Shown in pieces: positions 6,572 through 18,354 of a stretch of 24,105 nt of DNA. Under the pieces are notes generated by a model. The model had not been told where the DNA came from. It saw nothing but the letters and a program-made list of their open reading frames with translations, and made no database searches. Each line of letters starts with the position of its first letter. The stretch's first letter is position 1. Made by a program: the position numbers and the translations under genes. Source of the stretch: a virus; the IMG/VR virus record IMGVR_UViG_3300042475_000055, positions 1 through 24,105 of that record, one strand, 5' to 3'.

Positions 6572-7063
6572 ATGTACCAACACATCCCAACCGACCGACC
6601 TATCAAGGGAATCGAGATAGGCGTATGGGAAGCCCACAATTCCGAGAGGCTTCTTGACAAGTTCCCGAACCTACACCTAACGGCTATTGACCCGTTCGAG
6701 GGTTATCAAGATTGGTGGGGTTTCATTGATGGAAACACAATGAAAGGCCATGAATACATTGCATTTGAGCGATTGAAGCCATACGTTGACCGGGTTGACA
6801 TCATTAAGGACTACTCGGACAAAGCCTTGGAGTTCCTTGCTGATGAATCCTTCGACTTCATTTACATCGACGGGGACCATTCCTACAAATGGGCCTTGCA
6901 CGACATCACCAACTATTGGGCCAAGGTTAAGCCGGGTGGTTTGCTATGCGGACATGACCGTTCCCTTTCGGGGGTAGCCCAAGCCCTTGCAGAGTTCGGT
7001 AAACCTTTCACCCCAAGCGAAGAACCACAAAGCGATTCTTGGTTTATTGTCAAGCCCTATTGA
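6572..7063 (+). CDS. SAM-dependent methyltransferase (163 aa)
   Basis: This has the class I Rossmann layout of the Methyltransf_24 group: SAM-binding motif I G-I-E-I-G-V-W-E-A (residues 13-21), an acidic end of strand 2 at T-A-I-D-P-F, and the family signature F-D-F-I-Y-I-D-G-D-H-S-Y (about 94-105), followed by V-K-P-G-G-L-L and the active-site-like G-H-D. Such enzymes often methylate sugars or small hydroxyl groups in polysaccharide pathways, which fits its place between two glycosyltransferase genes. Short but complete. It starts 2 nt after the upstream stop. It is unlikely to be a DNA methyltransferase, since no N-P-P-Y or P-C motif is present. Confidence 0.82.
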   Translation: MYQHIPTDRPIKGIEIGVWEAHNSERLLDKFPNLHLTAIDPFEGYQDWWGFIDGNTMKGHEYIAFERLKPYVDRVDIIKDYSDKALEFLADESFDFIYIDGDHSYKWALHDITNYWAKVKPGGLLCGHDRSLSGVAQALAEFGKPFTPSEEPQSDSWFIVKPY

Positions 7064-7066
7064 GCC

Positions 7067-7717
7067 ATGGGCATCCCCGTCATCATCAACAACCGCAACC
7101 TGCTGACGTGGCCCAAAGCGATGGTCAGGGACTTGAGCAAGTGGGAGGGGATTGGGGACATCTACATCGTGGACAACGGTTCAACCTACGAACCTTTGCT
7201 GGAGTGGTACGCCACCAACCCTTGCAAGGTCGTAATGCTTGGCGAAAACTTGGGCCATCAAGCCCCATGGACTTCGGGCTTGGTGCAACAACTGGGAGAG
7301 CCGTTCTATGCAGTCACGGACCCGGACCTTGACCTTTACAAGACCAGCAAGCGGACGATTTCCATGTGCTTGGAGTGGTTGCAACAATTCCCCCAAGCAG
7401 GCAAGGTCGGCCTGTCGCTCCGATGGGATGATGTGCCTCCAAGGTCGTCGTACTACACCCACGTGAACAACTACGAAGCGACTCGTCAGCGTAACTCAAG
7501 GGTCATCATGGCAGCAAGGGTTGATGTTCCTATCGACACGACCTTTGCCGTTTACAATCGTCAGGAGTACTTCATCGGTGGGGTTTCGTTGCTTGAGTCA
7601 GCAAGGCACATTCCTTGGTATTACTCGGAGAAAGAACGCAAGGCTGATAAGGAGTTCAGCCAGTACCTTGCATCGGCATCGTCGGCATCGTCCTACAAAA
7701 CCTTCTTGAAACTATGA
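7067..7717 (+). CDS. Family 2-like glycosyltransferase (216 aa)
   Basis: GT-A fold features are visible: an N-terminal P-V-I-I-N-N-R-N-L-L strand, I-V-D-N-G-S-T-Y-E-P (residues 35-44, typical of the nucleotide-sugar site), G-E-N-L-G-H-Q-A-P-W, and a D-x-D-like metal site T-D-P-D-L-D-L. The C-terminus ends in a short serine/alanine repeat (ASASSASS) encoded by imperfect tandem GCATCGTCG units. It is a little shorter than usual family 2 enzymes. It starts 3 nt after the methyltransferase and its stop overlaps the tail chaperone start (ATGA), so it is expressed with the structural genes. Substrate unknown; virion or surface glycan modification is the likely role. Confidence 0.82.
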   Translation: MGIPVIINNRNLLTWPKAMVRDLSKWEGIGDIYIVDNGSTYEPLLEWYATNPCKVVMLGENLGHQAPWTSGLVQQLGEPFYAVTDPDLDLYKTSKRTISMCLEWLQQFPQAGKVGLSLRWDDVPPRSSYYTHVNNYEATRQRNSRVIMAARVDVPIDTTFAVYNRQEYFIGGVSLLESARHIPWYYSEKERKADKEFSQYLASASSASSYKTFLKL

Positions 7718-8283
7718 AACTCCAAGACCTCACCATTGACCAGTTCCAACGCATCGGAGCCATTGAGTTCAGTAGCGTGCTGGGAGATTACGACAAGCGA
7801 GCAGGGGTCGTCGCAATCGTTGAGGGGGTCGATATATCATTCGTTCGAGAAATGCCTGCCAAGAGCGTCCTAAAGAGATACAAGGCCATCATAAGCGAGT
7901 GGAACGCATTGCCTGCCCTTGGGTACAAGCGGAAGTTCAAAGCAGGGGGCAAGTGGTGGATTCCGACGGTGTTCACGGACGAGTTGACGGCTGGGCAGTT
8001 GATAGAGTTAATGGACGCAAACACGACCGACGAGAAGCAGTTGTTGCAGAACCTCCACCGCATCATGGCAACCTTATGCAGGGAAGGTGGTCTATTCGGA
8101 TTATTCCCGAAAAAGTACGACGGTGCTGCCCATGCAGAACGGGCCGAACTGATGAAGAAACACGCCAAGGTGGGCGACGTTTGGGGGGTTGTCAGTTTTT
8201 TTTTGCTAAGTTCAGAATCCTACTTGAAAGTTTTGAGCGACTATTCCAAGCACCTGATGACGAAGGCCGAGGGGCTGACGTAA
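7714..8283 (+). CDS. Tail-assembly-chaperone-like protein, zero-frame product (189 aa)
   Basis: It starts at an ATGA overlap with MKLQDLTIDQFQRIGAI, the same kind of opening as tail chaperones and related proteins in Bacteroidota siphophages. No catalytic motif or membrane segment is visible. At residues 162-164 the message has nine T in a row; the zero-frame product then continues for only about 26 poorly structured residues to the stop at 8281-8283. In lambda-type phages this gene position makes a G product and, by -1 frameshift, a longer GT product that loads on the tape measure. The -1 frame here is open for 85 more residues (see 8202-8459). An indel in the T run is the alternative explanation. 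Confidence 0.62.
   Translation: MKLQDLTIDQFQRIGAIEFSSVLGDYDKRAGVVAIVEGVDISFVREMPAKSVLKRYKAIISEWNALPALGYKRKFKAGGKWWIPTVFTDELTAGQLIELMDANTTDEKQLLQNLHRIMATLCREGGLFGLFPKKYDGAAHAERAELMKKHAKVGDVWGVVSFFLLSSESYLKVLSDYSKHLMTKAEGLT
8196..8204 (+). promoter_or_regulatory. T9 slippery site for -1 frameshifting
   Basis: Nine consecutive T. In the zero frame it reads AG-T TTT TTT TT-G, so 8196-8202 is a perfect T TTT TTT heptamer (X XXY YYZ). Slipping back one base continues in the frame that stays open to 8459. No clear downstream pseudoknot or hairpin is seen by eye. Confidence 0.6.
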
Positions 8284-8459
8284 GCCCTCTCGCTGGCTAC
8301 GGTTGGCTGATGGTGGTGTGGAGGATGGCAAACAAGGACGTACTGAAATTCGATGCCATCTTCGCAATGAAGGCGGTGGAGTTCTTGAACTACGCACTCC
8401 TGATTCACGACATTTTGGAAGCAGAGAGGATGGAGGCGGAGCGGGCAAGAAGAAAGTAG
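8202..8459 (+). CDS. -1 frame extension of the tail chaperone (GT-like, 85 aa)
   Basis: This frame is read if ribosomes slip back one base on the T run. It then encodes F-A-K-F-R-I-L-L-E-S-F-E-R-L-F, a G-Y-G-W-L-M-V-V-W-R-M-A segment, D-V-L-K-F-D-A-I-F-A-M-K-A-V-E-F-L-N-Y and a charged helical end, stopping at TAG 8457-8459. This looks far more like folded protein than the zero-frame tail. The final short helical domain (K-F-D-x-x-x-x-M-x-A-x-E-F-L) resembles the C-terminal part of tail assembly chaperone fusions. The fused product would be about 248 aa. It has no good independent start near the slip site. If the T run is a sequencing error, this is simply the second half of one normal gene. 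Confidence 0.62.
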   Translation, partial: FAKFRILLESFERLFQAPDDEGRGADVSPLAGYGWLMVVWRMANKDVLKFDAIFAMKAVEFLNYALLIHDILEAERMEAERARRK

Positions 8460-8467
8460 TATATTTG
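8460..8467 (+). promoter_or_regulatory. -7 box TATATTTG before the tRNA-like RNA
   Basis: A perfect TAnnTTTG placed right after the chaperone stop. It ends 4 nt before the 5' end of the acceptor-like stem of the RNA (8472), the correct distance for transcription to begin at the RNA 5' end. No -33 TTTG at the usual distance. Confidence 0.5.
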
Positions 8468-8471
8468 CATT

Positions 8472-8633
8472 AGTCAGGTGGCGGAATGACGGTACAAAGA
8501 GTAATGGTATGTGCCTGATACGGTAGACGCTACGAGTTGGATTTAGGTCTCAAACATTCCCGTTCGAGTCGGGCATAGTGGGCCAACTAGGAGAAACTAA
8601 GACCATGCAGGTTCGAATCCTGTCCTGACTACA
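8472..8633 (+). ncRNA. Unusual tRNA-like RNA with two T-arms
   Basis: The ends behave like a tRNA: AGTCAGG (8472-8478) pairs perfectly with CCTGACT (8624-8630). A canonical T-arm (stem 8607-8611/8619-8623, loop TTCGAAT) abuts the 3' acceptor strand. The first bases after the acceptor are TG, then GCGGAAT, as in leucine-type tRNAs. But the span is about 160 nt, about twice a normal tRNA. Inside lies a second T-arm (CCCG-TTCGAGT-CGGG, 8559-8573), an anticodon-arm-like hairpin with loop TTTAGGT (8542-8548, UAG anticodon, leucine-like, but one A-C mismatch in the stem), and GGCCA at 8581-8585 like an encoded CCA end. ACGGTA is repeated at 8489 and 8520. It could be one tRNA with an insertion, two nested tRNAs, a decayed tandem, or a non-tRNA RNA that copies tRNA ends. 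Confidence 0.55.
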
Positions 8634-8648
8634 CTATCCGGCACGGGT

Positions 8649-8656
8649 TACATTTA
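8649..8656 (+). promoter_or_regulatory. TACATTTA box
   Basis: A TAnnTTT(G/A) box ending 5 nt (CCCAC) before ATG 8662. The same TACATTTA octamer recurs before the genes at 18385 and 22609, and with one change before 14430. Confidence 0.5.
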
Positions 8657-8661
8657 CCCAC

Positions 8662-9309
8662 ATGGAAACAACCATACTTGCGAATGGCCAACCCGTAGGT
8701 AAGTTCGGCAGCGGTTCGATGAAGGGCATCGACCAAGCCGCCTTGGAGGGGATTGGTTCAATCGTTGGACCCAAGGGCGGAGGCAAGTCGCCAACCCACG
8801 ACGTGCTGGTCAAGTGGATTGAACGGGTCATCGAACTTGCGAAGAAAAACCTCGAAGCAGCCAACGCCAACGCAGGGGGAACGCTATCCGCATCCATCGC
8901 CCCCGAAGACATCGAACTATCCGCAAAGCAAATAGTCGTGGCTATCATGGCTAATTCCTATTGGAAGTACGTTGACCAAGGGGTGCGAGGCAAAACGTCA
9001 AGCGTAAAGGCTCCAAGGTCGCCATTCCAATACAAAGACAATTACCCACCTGCCCAAGCCATGGCTGATTGGATAGCCAACAAGGAAAAAGCAGTTGTGC
9101 CGACCTATTCACGCAAACTCAAGCGGATGCGGACGAAGCAGGAGCAGGGATTGGTCGATGGCAGGTCGGTAGCCTATTGGGTATTCCAGCGAGGAACACG
9201 GGCCACGAACTTCATGTCTAACGCCCTATCCCCCGAAATGATAGACGTTTTGGTGAACACAATCGCTGAAACCTTAGGCAAATCCATAAGCGTAGCAACC
9301 AAACTATAA
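8662..9309 (+). CDS. Neck/tail-completion protein, HK97 gp10-like (215 aa)
   Basis: The N-terminal part has a helical segment (I-E-R-V-I-E-L-A-K-K-N-L), followed by G-T-L-S-A-S-I-A-P, then A-N-S-Y-W-K-Y-V-D-Q-G-V-R-G and, near the end, A-Y-W-V-F-Q-R-G-T-R-A-T-N-F. The Y-x-x-Y-V-D-x-G-V-x-G pattern followed by a C-terminal helix is typical of HK97 gp10-like head-tail joining and tail completion proteins as seen in Bacteroidota phages. It would act at the head-tail interface of the virion. It is the first gene after the tRNA-like RNA, with its own promoter box. The name is by general resemblance; no catalytic residue is expected. Confidence 0.6.
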   Translation: METTILANGQPVGKFGSGSMKGIDQAALEGIGSIVGPKGGGKSPTHDVLVKWIERVIELAKKNLEAANANAGGTLSASIAPEDIELSAKQIVVAIMANSYWKYVDQGVRGKTSSVKAPRSPFQYKDNYPPAQAMADWIANKEKAVVPTYSRKLKRMRTKQEQGLVDGRSVAYWVFQRGTRATNFMSNALSPEMIDVLVNTIAETLGKSISVATKL

Positions 9310-17236: not shown

Positions 17237-17271
17237 AGGGGCAGTCAGCAATGGCTGCCCTTCTTATTTTT
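17237..17271 (+). terminator. Rho-independent terminator with GNRA loop
   Basis: An 11-bp stem (17237-17247 with 17252-17262, two G-T wobbles) closed by GCAA, followed by CTTATTTTT (17263-17271). The upstream ATG at 17251 lies in its 3' arm, which argues against that start for the next gene. Confidence 0.85.
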
Positions 17272-17277
17272 ACGGCT

Positions 17278-18354
17278 ATGAAGATTTGCATCGTTTACAA
17301 CGCCCATCCAACCGGGTGCAGTTTCTACCGCCTTGAAATGCCGAACGCATACCTTGGCGACAACTACCCGGAGTTCGATTACGTCTGCGTTGAGAATATC
17401 ACGACCATCAGCGACGAGGGATTAAAGTCGATTGACCTGTTCCTGTTCAGCCGGCTTTGGTGTCAGGGAACCATGGAGCAAGTCGAAAATGTTTACAAAG
17501 CCCTGACCCAATTCGGGGCCAAAGTCATCCTTGACTTGGACGATTACTGGGTCCTTGAGAGTGGCCACATCATGTACCGCCACTACCATCAAACCAAACT
17601 CGCAGAGGTCATCCGTAAGCACATAAAATTGGCTGATTGGGTAACTTGTACCACCGAGCATCTTGCTGCTCGCATACGGCCTCTAAATGCGAATGTGAGC
17701 ATCCTGCAAAACGAACCATACGAAGCGTATCAGCAGTTCATTCCCAACCCTGACGAAGAACCCGACAAGCACCTCGTGAAGTTCGGTTGGTTCGGTGGTG
17801 CGCAGCACGGAGAGGACATGGAACTGCTCCGGGAAGGGATGCAGAAGTTACGCTGGGACGCAAACTTGGACGGCAAGTACCGCCTCTATCTCGGAGGGTG
17901 GAACGACAATAATCCTGTTTATGAAGGCTACGAGAAAATCATCAGCGACCAAGGCAATAATCCAAACTACGGACGCATTCAAGCTGCTGACATTTACTCG
18001 TATGTGGGTGGCTACAACTTCGTGAACGTAACCCTTGCACCTTTGAGGGACACCAAGTTCAACAAACTGAAATCCGAGTTGAAGGTGGTCGAGGCAGGGT
18101 GGATGAACAAGGCGATCATCGCAAGCGAAACCATCCCCTACACGGACGTAATCAAGCACGGAGAGAACGGGTTCTTGGTCCCCTACAACAAGCCGAAAGA
18201 TTGGTACAAGTACATCAAGCAGTTGATCCTTGACCCCGACCTTCGCAAAGGCTTGGCTGACAACCTCACGAGGGACATCAAGAAGCAGTTCAATGTAGCC
18301 GAAACCGCCAAGAAGCGAGCCGAACTATACAGGCAGATTGGGCGCAAATTGTGA
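17278..18354 (+). CDS. GT-B-type glycosyltransferase (358 aa)
   Basis: I start at ATG 17278: the longer frame begins in the terminator hairpin. The protein opens MKICIVYNAHPTGCSFYRLE. It contains the family-4-like V-I-L-D-L-D-D-Y-W segment (residues 87-95), V-K-F-G-W-F-G-G (the hinge glycine region), and a C-terminal donor-site set L-K-S-E-L-K-V-V-E-A-G-W, I-A-S-E-T-I-P-Y and G-E-N-G-F-L-V. These are features of two-domain transferases using nucleotide sugars. It sits between tail-tube-like and fibre-like genes, unusual for a housekeeping sugar enzyme. It probably glycosylates a virion protein or changes host surface sugars. Length is normal. Confidence 0.82.
   Translation: MKICIVYNAHPTGCSFYRLEMPNAYLGDNYPEFDYVCVENITTISDEGLKSIDLFLFSRLWCQGTMEQVENVYKALTQFGAKVILDLDDYWVLESGHIMYRHYHQTKLAEVIRKHIKLADWVTCTTEHLAARIRPLNANVSILQNEPYEAYQQFIPNPDEEPDKHLVKFGWFGGAQHGEDMELLREGMQKLRWDANLDGKYRLYLGGWNDNNPVYEGYEKIISDQGNNPNYGRIQAADIYSYVGGYNFVNVTLAPLRDTKFNKLKSELKVVEAGWMNKAIIASETIPYTDVIKHGENGFLVPYNKPKDWYKYIKQLILDPDLRKGLADNLTRDIKKQFNVAETAKKRAELYRQIGRKL

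Follow-up and report, generated by a model that had tools for sequence, protein, structure and literature searches.

We analysed a virus record of 24,105 bases (in the following called the window) that carries terminase, portal and tape-measure genes. Between the end of a gene for a 186-aa protein (8459) and the start of a gene for a 215-aa protein (8662) a sequence-only reading had reported a 160-nt tRNA-like RNA, and we confirm this element as real. The respective features are listed in Table 1. The upstream gene overlaps another long plus-strand open reading frame in a different frame (7714-8283 vs. 7899-8459); probably only one of the two is a gene, and searches against Pfam and PHROG gave no match for either. 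Elsewhere, the window encodes a DNA methyltransferase (1201-2259), a glycosyltransferase (17251-18354) and a methyltransferase-domain protein (6572-7063).

Table 1. Features of the locus in window coordinates, in 5' to 3' order.
Feature	Positions	Strand	Remarks
Upstream flanking gene, 186 aa	7899..8459	+	no Pfam or PHROG match; ends at the slot
Promoter-like -7 box TATATTTG, Bacteroidetes-type TAnnTTTG	8460..8467	+	4 nt 5' of the RNA start
Exchangeable cassette (promoter and tRNA-framed RNA)	8460..8630	+	absent in 51/81 relatives
tRNA-framed RNA, 160 nt	8472..8631	+	
Acceptor stem, 5' strand AGTCAGG	8472..8478	+	partner 8624-8630; six further framed elements have different complementary acceptors
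D-arm, 5' part GGCGGAATG, leucine-tRNA type	8480..8488	+	motif repeated in hundreds of elements
D-loop insert, 33 nt	8489..8521	+	hairpin GGTAC 8491-8495 / GTGCC 8511-8515; recurs in unrelated phage L360
D-arm, 3' part GGTAGACGC	8522..8530	+	
Helix S1, 5' strand AGTTGG	8535..8540	+	pairs with 8583-8588
Helix S2, 5' strand GGTCT	8546..8550	+	crosses S1 (H-type pseudoknot)
Inner T-arm-like hairpin CCCG-TTCGAGT-CGGG	8559..8573	+	
Helix S1, 3' strand CCAACT	8583..8588	+	includes the CCA of the sequence-only reading
Helix S2, 3' strand AGACC	8600..8604	+	followed by ATG and T-stem CAGG (class-wide position)
Outer T-arm GCAGG-TTCGAAT-CCTGT, 5 bp	8607..8623	+	first pair G-U; abuts the acceptor
Acceptor stem, 3' strand CCTGACT, and discriminator A	8624..8631	+	CCA not encoded
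Downstream flanking gene, 215 aa, PHROG 29822	8662..9309	+	query for collecting relatives

The outer part of the element has the features of a tRNA. The perfect 7-bp acceptor-like stem with its abutting T-arm is exactly as had been described, and such a combination (5-bp T-arm and exact 7-bp acceptor within 200 nt) is found once on the plus strand of the window but in none of 60 dinucleotide shuffles. A D-arm with GG in its loop, overlooked so far, is present as well but divided by a 33-nt insert.

Standard detectors do not report the element, i.e., neither ARAGORN nor Rfam at its gathering thresholds gives a match. In a permissive Rfam search, the best sub-threshold match is a tRNA with 18.6 bits (cut-off 29) that covers only 8567-8631, while tmRNA, group I intron (RF00028) and GOLLD/ROOL models show no match in 8440-8660 at E up to 10. 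MFE folding is uninformative (z of 0.05), with a folder that is unable to model pseudoknots.

The element had also been credited with its own promoter, based on a -7 box at the correct distance from the RNA 5' end. The placement is accurate, and 53 viral contig stretches conserve TATATTTGCATTAGTCAGGTGG together with CATT-AGTCAGGTGG. The box stands at a fixed offset from the RNA start mainly within the phage group of the window. As a motif in the window, TAnnTTTG does not exceed chance (7 occurrences vs. 10.4 expected).

Slot and class of the tRNA-framed RNAs

Relatives of the locus were defined as viral contigs with a homologue of the downstream gene at 91-99% protein identity, which resulted in 81 loci with the window among them. 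In 51 of these the slot between the two genes is empty, such that the upstream stop codon joins ACACATTCC/ACACTATCC directly, and filled in the remaining 30 with 12 cassette types, single or in tandem. All slot cassettes have the frame AGTCAGG...CAGGTTCGAWTCCTGTCCTGACTA in common and most also the upstream box TATATTTGCATT. Two of the 12 types are ordinary tRNAs, namely Ile-TAT (73 nt) and Leu-TAA (90 nt), while the other types are not. The flank of one empty relative (L009) shows 96.9% identity to the window. Conversely, one cassette is common to loci with a flank divergence of 7-8%, and the flanks around the cassette of the window diverge by as much as about 8%. Comparison of these loci shows, at the level of sequence, that whole cassettes are gained, lost and swapped between phages at a fixed slot.

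The same frame is found far beyond this slot. Sampling with the exact 3' frame and with the 5' frame in two versions yielded at least 501 distinct phage elements from at least 534 loci, on phage contigs between about 4 and 281 kb in length. Their common outer frame consists of the acceptor AGTCAGG/CCTGACT-A, a leucine-type D-arm GGCGGAAT-GGTAGACGC and a T-arm ACAGGTTCGAATCCTGT. The conservation of this frame is overstated partly by selection, since exact frame sequences were used for sampling. The interiors are unrelated and form at least 280 clusters (284 by single linkage, of which one with 80 members is a chaining artefact). The window element belongs to this class, i.e., it combines the AGTCAGG-leucine-type D-arm-T-arm-CCTGACTA frame with a non-tRNA interior in an exchangeable slot. 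This hypervariable class was invisible to the sequence-only reading because the latter had a single window at hand.

Class-wide conservation stops sharply at positions -5/+4, so that it is the RNA gene as such that is conserved. A U is found at position -1 in 82% of the elements, and CCA is not encoded. Framed elements within one locus reuse the same acceptor (up to six in L170), while leucine tRNAs with GCC-type acceptors are among the ordinary tRNAs of those arrays. Six framed non-tRNA elements (L486, L517, L404, L451, L488, L381) have different, fully complementary acceptors, with the alternatives GGTGAGA/TCTCACC, AGGTAAG/TTTACCT, AGCAAGA/TCTTGCT, AGCAAGG/CTTTGCT and GGTTGGG/CCCAACC, and thus provide independent support for the acceptor stem. 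Framed elements sit amid arrays of ordinary tRNAs, some frames hold real tRNAs, and some sister elements exceed the Rfam tRNA cut-off with 31-47 bits.

The class is nearly exclusive to viruses. Within 84,980 bacterial and archaeal species (one genome each), the 3' frame occurs in 8 MAG contigs only. We searched 10 proteins from 7 of these 8 contigs and found phage-type proteins (terminase, DnaB helicase, exonuclease, sigma factor, helicase) in 5 contigs, while the proteins tested from L330 and L332 had no match. The contigs L328, L329, L331, L334 and L335 are filed as bacterial MAGs with phage genes inside, i.e., they look like phage contigs binned with bacteria or like prophages. In 50,697 GenBank phage records the exact frame is absent, the nearest matches being ordinary tRNA-Leu/Gln and similar. 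We found no Rfam family that matches the class and no account of such elements in the open-access literature, a search that covered subscription journals and preprint servers in part. Judged from sequence, the tRNA-framed RNAs appear to form a class of viral non-coding RNA that is new.

Two further observations concern the surroundings of the class. A spacer hairpin with a GAAAGA loop and a variable 5-bp stem (e.g., CCTCG-GAAAGA-CGAGG or GCTTG-GAAAGA-CAAGC) is located 0-40 nt upstream of 29 framed elements (loci such as L498, L431, L469 and L362), while four control loops yield 0; it is possibly a processing or regulatory signal. Furthermore, a family from L172 (e44), L195:5329-5430, L231:12636-12737 and L244:864-947 shows at least 3 complementary acceptors (TGTAAGG, TGTATCG, TGTAGAG), a conserved hairpin whose loop reads TCGTCT(C/A), and a long conserved 3' domain GGTTGACCACAAAGCCGGC. 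It may represent an Asp-like tRNA in which the variable region is giant.

Interiors and their helices

First, we consider whether the interiors encode anything that decodes. The sequence-only reading had pointed to an anticodon-like hairpin with loop TTTAGGT. The respective TTGGA-TTTAGGT-CTCAA is paired at just 4 of 5 positions, with A x C beside the loop, and its spacing is wrong for a decoding arm. In the class, a decoding anticodon arm is found in 1.8% of the representatives vs. 1.3% of shuffled sequences, and anticodon-like hairpins anywhere in the interiors in 5.3% vs. 4.7%, i.e., the hairpin is about as frequent as in shuffles. Some interiors, with 18-29 nt, are too small for an anticodon arm plus an intron. 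Interior families recur and some are common to unrelated phages, while many elements are singletons.

What is enriched instead is a helix that connects the interior with the tail of the element. A tail helix S2 with a score of at least 14 is found in 27% of 201 representatives, compared to 8.6% for shuffled and 8.5% for slid sequences, and in 38 of the 55 strong cases S2 ends exactly 3 nt before the T-stem CAGG. The interior also contains the partner strand of S2, and a helix S1 at the position of the anticodon stem often crosses it, which yields an H-type pseudoknot. The crossing S1 is modestly enriched (21% vs. 8% at a score of at least 14).

For S2, the best comparative case is family T3, which occupies the same slot as the window element in other phages. 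Here, S2 (GGGTACA/TGTACTC) is paired in 7/7 sequences. Two of its positions show three pair types, the double-change cells number 9, and the covariation of S2 is 0.599 vs. 0.211 for shuffled and at most 0.197 for slid alignments. Three bases of S2 could alternatively pair in a 5-bp stem at the anticodon position of T3. S1 does not vary within the aligned families and thus shows no covariation. In family F1, which alone is not decisive, S1 is likewise invariant and S2 shows a single double change.

The window element follows the same layout on one sequence only, i.e., S2 ends 3 nt before CAGG and crosses S1. Jointly, S1 and S2 have a P of 0.019 against shuffles, which is single-sequence evidence because the relatives of the window interior are nearly identical. 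What had been taken for a CCA-like end inside the element (GGGCCA) overlaps the 3' strand of S1, the partner of AGTTGG.

The D-loop insert of the window recurs in L360, where the first pair of its hairpin is changed from G-C to A-U. Covariation in homologues, the absence of which the sequence-only reading had named as evidence against the element, is thus observed both in this insert and in the same-slot sister family T3. The interior of L360 is also found in L471, there without the D-loop insert; D-loop inserts and interiors are therefore separate modules. Among the 17 elements listed with a displaced GGTAGACGC, most carry real D-loop hairpin inserts. Removing the D-loop insert would yield a consensus D-loop; interiors in the anticodon region leave no standard arm.

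The second T-arm inside the element is present as had been noted. Among the matches listed, 8 of 283 independent interiors have such a T-arm-like hairpin, compared to a shuffled mean of 0.13. Two T-arms are therefore a recurring minority feature and no coincidence. By inspection, the inner T-arm of the window has neither an acceptor stem nor a D-arm of its own.

We also considered two kinds of sequence match for the interiors and rejected both. Pieces of rRNA were one candidate: plus-strand matches to E. coli rRNA number 22 at 23 bits or more vs. 7-11 for shuffles, a modest excess that is partly due to one repeated tRNA cassette. As an individual case, the D-loop insert AGATATTAGTAGTGGYGAGCGAAC.TATCGT of L484 (e428) and L521 (e481) matches 23S rRNA nt 241-257 at 16/17 positions. 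Antisense guides were the other candidate. Matches to phage DNA above the shuffle level are, among those inspected, same-orientation relatives in tRNA-like frames, and no antisense target was found in the phage DNA searched.

Proposed role and rival explanations

Structure and exchange of the class are well supported by the alignments. Comparison shows an outer body made of the predicted acceptor, T-arm and split D-arm of a leucine-type tRNA, in which an interchangeable, putatively structured domain takes the place of the anticodon domain. By a modest preference, we read the element as a phage-encoded, tRNA-scaffolded, non-decoding RNA whose exchangeable structured interior would be the working part, likely with a role in host or inter-phage conflict. 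The more general statement appears fairly probable to us, namely that a large and nearly virus-exclusive class of non-coding RNA exists in phages, the hosts of which are probably freshwater Bacteroidota, with the tRNA body as scaffold for exchangeable, fast-diversifying domains. Such a class would be a modular RNA-effector system that phages trade with each other. It is the MAG names and the TAnnTTTG box that suggest Bacteroidota as hosts.

The tRNA body would let the host's tRNA enzymes mature and protect the RNA (RNase P, 3' processing/trimming, CCA addition). An earlier suggestion of a tRNA with an insertion, or of a mimic that engages processing factors, agrees with the outer tRNA body, the U at -1 and the covarying acceptors; the engagement of such factors itself we only infer. 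Bacterial LeuRS largely ignores the anticodon. Since it does so and the framed RNA has a leucine-type D-arm and a leucine-type A73, its leucylation is possible. Rapid turnover at a fixed slot in near-identical phages is typical of genes in host or inter-phage conflict. We tentatively favour a conflict role because the turnover of the interiors among near-identical phages is extreme. This turnover hints that the interior might be the working part, which may bind a fast-changing factor of the host or of a rival phage as an RNA decoy or inhibitor rather than act in translation.

The strongest competitor reverses the roles of body and interior. That is, the tRNA body would be the active part, a sacrificial or competitive decoy for immune nucleases that read tRNA bodies or tails (retron-associated, PARIS, PrrC-like, Cas12a3-like), and the interior would only make the RNA non-decoding or uncleavable. 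It is a serious rival because phage tRNAs that escape tRNA-cleaving defences (PMC10264068, PMC11555353) and an immune nuclease that cuts tRNA tails (PMC12851939) are published. The frame, which retains acceptor, elbow and T-arm without an anticodon, would suit such a decoy. The conserved helices of the interiors and their recurring families, however, are left unexplained, and we regard this explanation as unlikely overall.

Rather unlikely are tiny introns, i.e., inserts in the D-loop and the anticodon region that are spliced out to leave ordinary tRNAs. The two insert positions within the tRNA, the consensus D-loop restored by removal, the insert-free L471 and the real tRNAs in some frames are all in line with splicing. 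But S2, in T3 and others, links the would-be intron to the would-be exon before the T-stem and would be broken by excision. We disfavour introns because of this bridge and because an arm and an intron together would not fit into some of the interiors; furthermore, neither decoding arms nor anticodon-like hairpins exceed chance, and Rfam gives no group I match at E up to 10.

We likewise disfavour, as quite improbable, that the elements are decaying tRNA genes, i.e., functionless leftovers in a recombining phage tRNA array. Their place among ordinary tRNA arrays and the many singletons are what decay would produce. Decay does not account for the compensatory changes in S2 and the acceptors, an intact frame around a wholly different interior, families common to unrelated phages, or a promoter conserved in the group of the window.

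A tmRNA-like or translation-factor trap, in which the frame binds EF-Tu or the ribosome while the interior blocks or rescues ribosomes, is very improbable. A tRNA elbow with a pseudoknot recalls tmRNA, and true tmRNAs occur in L221 and L197. However, tmRNA lacks a D-stem while the framed elements keep a normal D-arm, no tmRNA match is obtained at E up to 10, and an unsystematic look revealed no tag-like reading frame. Finally, two ordinary tRNAs or a tRNA nested in a tRNA, as once suggested by the two T-arms, are refuted by the lack of an inner acceptor, an inner D-arm and any tRNA predicted by ARAGORN or above the Rfam threshold, and by interiors that are unrelated between cassettes.

If the preferred reading of a tRNA scaffold with exchangeable interiors is true, tRNA detectors have missed a large class of viral RNA, and 'odd' tRNAs in phage tRNA arrays have a reason. 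In the laboratory, the 'tRNA scaffold' is a method to stabilise payload RNAs; the class would be a natural use of the same principle. It would also be a source of hundreds of compact structured RNAs that are candidates for binding factors of phage-host conflict.

Relation to known systems

Genes of tRNAs with introns (small archaeal ones or group I) resemble the framed elements in their insertions in the D-loop and the anticodon region. They differ in that the S2 of framed elements ties the interior to the frame, no decoding arm remains and no group I match is found. The RNA antitoxins of type III toxin-antitoxin systems (ToxI) and phage pseudo-ToxI are small, fast-evolving RNA pseudoknots in phage-host conflict. 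By description only, framed elements are alike in being small, fast-evolving pseudoknots, while ToxI has no tRNA frame.

GOLLD/ROOL RNAs (RF02032; PMC12286853) are, like the framed elements, structured phage RNAs near tRNA islands. In contrast to the framed elements, they have 400-800+ nt, a conserved sequence of their own and no tRNA frame. In L197, GOLLD occurs together with framed elements; matches of GOLLD, tmRNA and type-P3 twister ribozyme in framed-element loci are located at L197:4476-4887, L197:2717-3112, L221:553-939 and L508:2924-2993. With tmRNA (RF00023), of which phage copies occur nearby, the elements share tRNA-like ends around a pseudoknotted body, but they have a normal D-arm, do not match the tmRNA model and are far smaller.

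Closest are the phage tRNAs in arrays (RF00005), with which the framed elements share acceptor, D-arm, T-arm, U(-1) and the place among ordinary phage tRNAs. Unlike these, framed elements have no decoding arm, a length of 86-182 nt and a pseudoknotted, hypervariable interior, and they reuse one acceptor sequence across different interiors.
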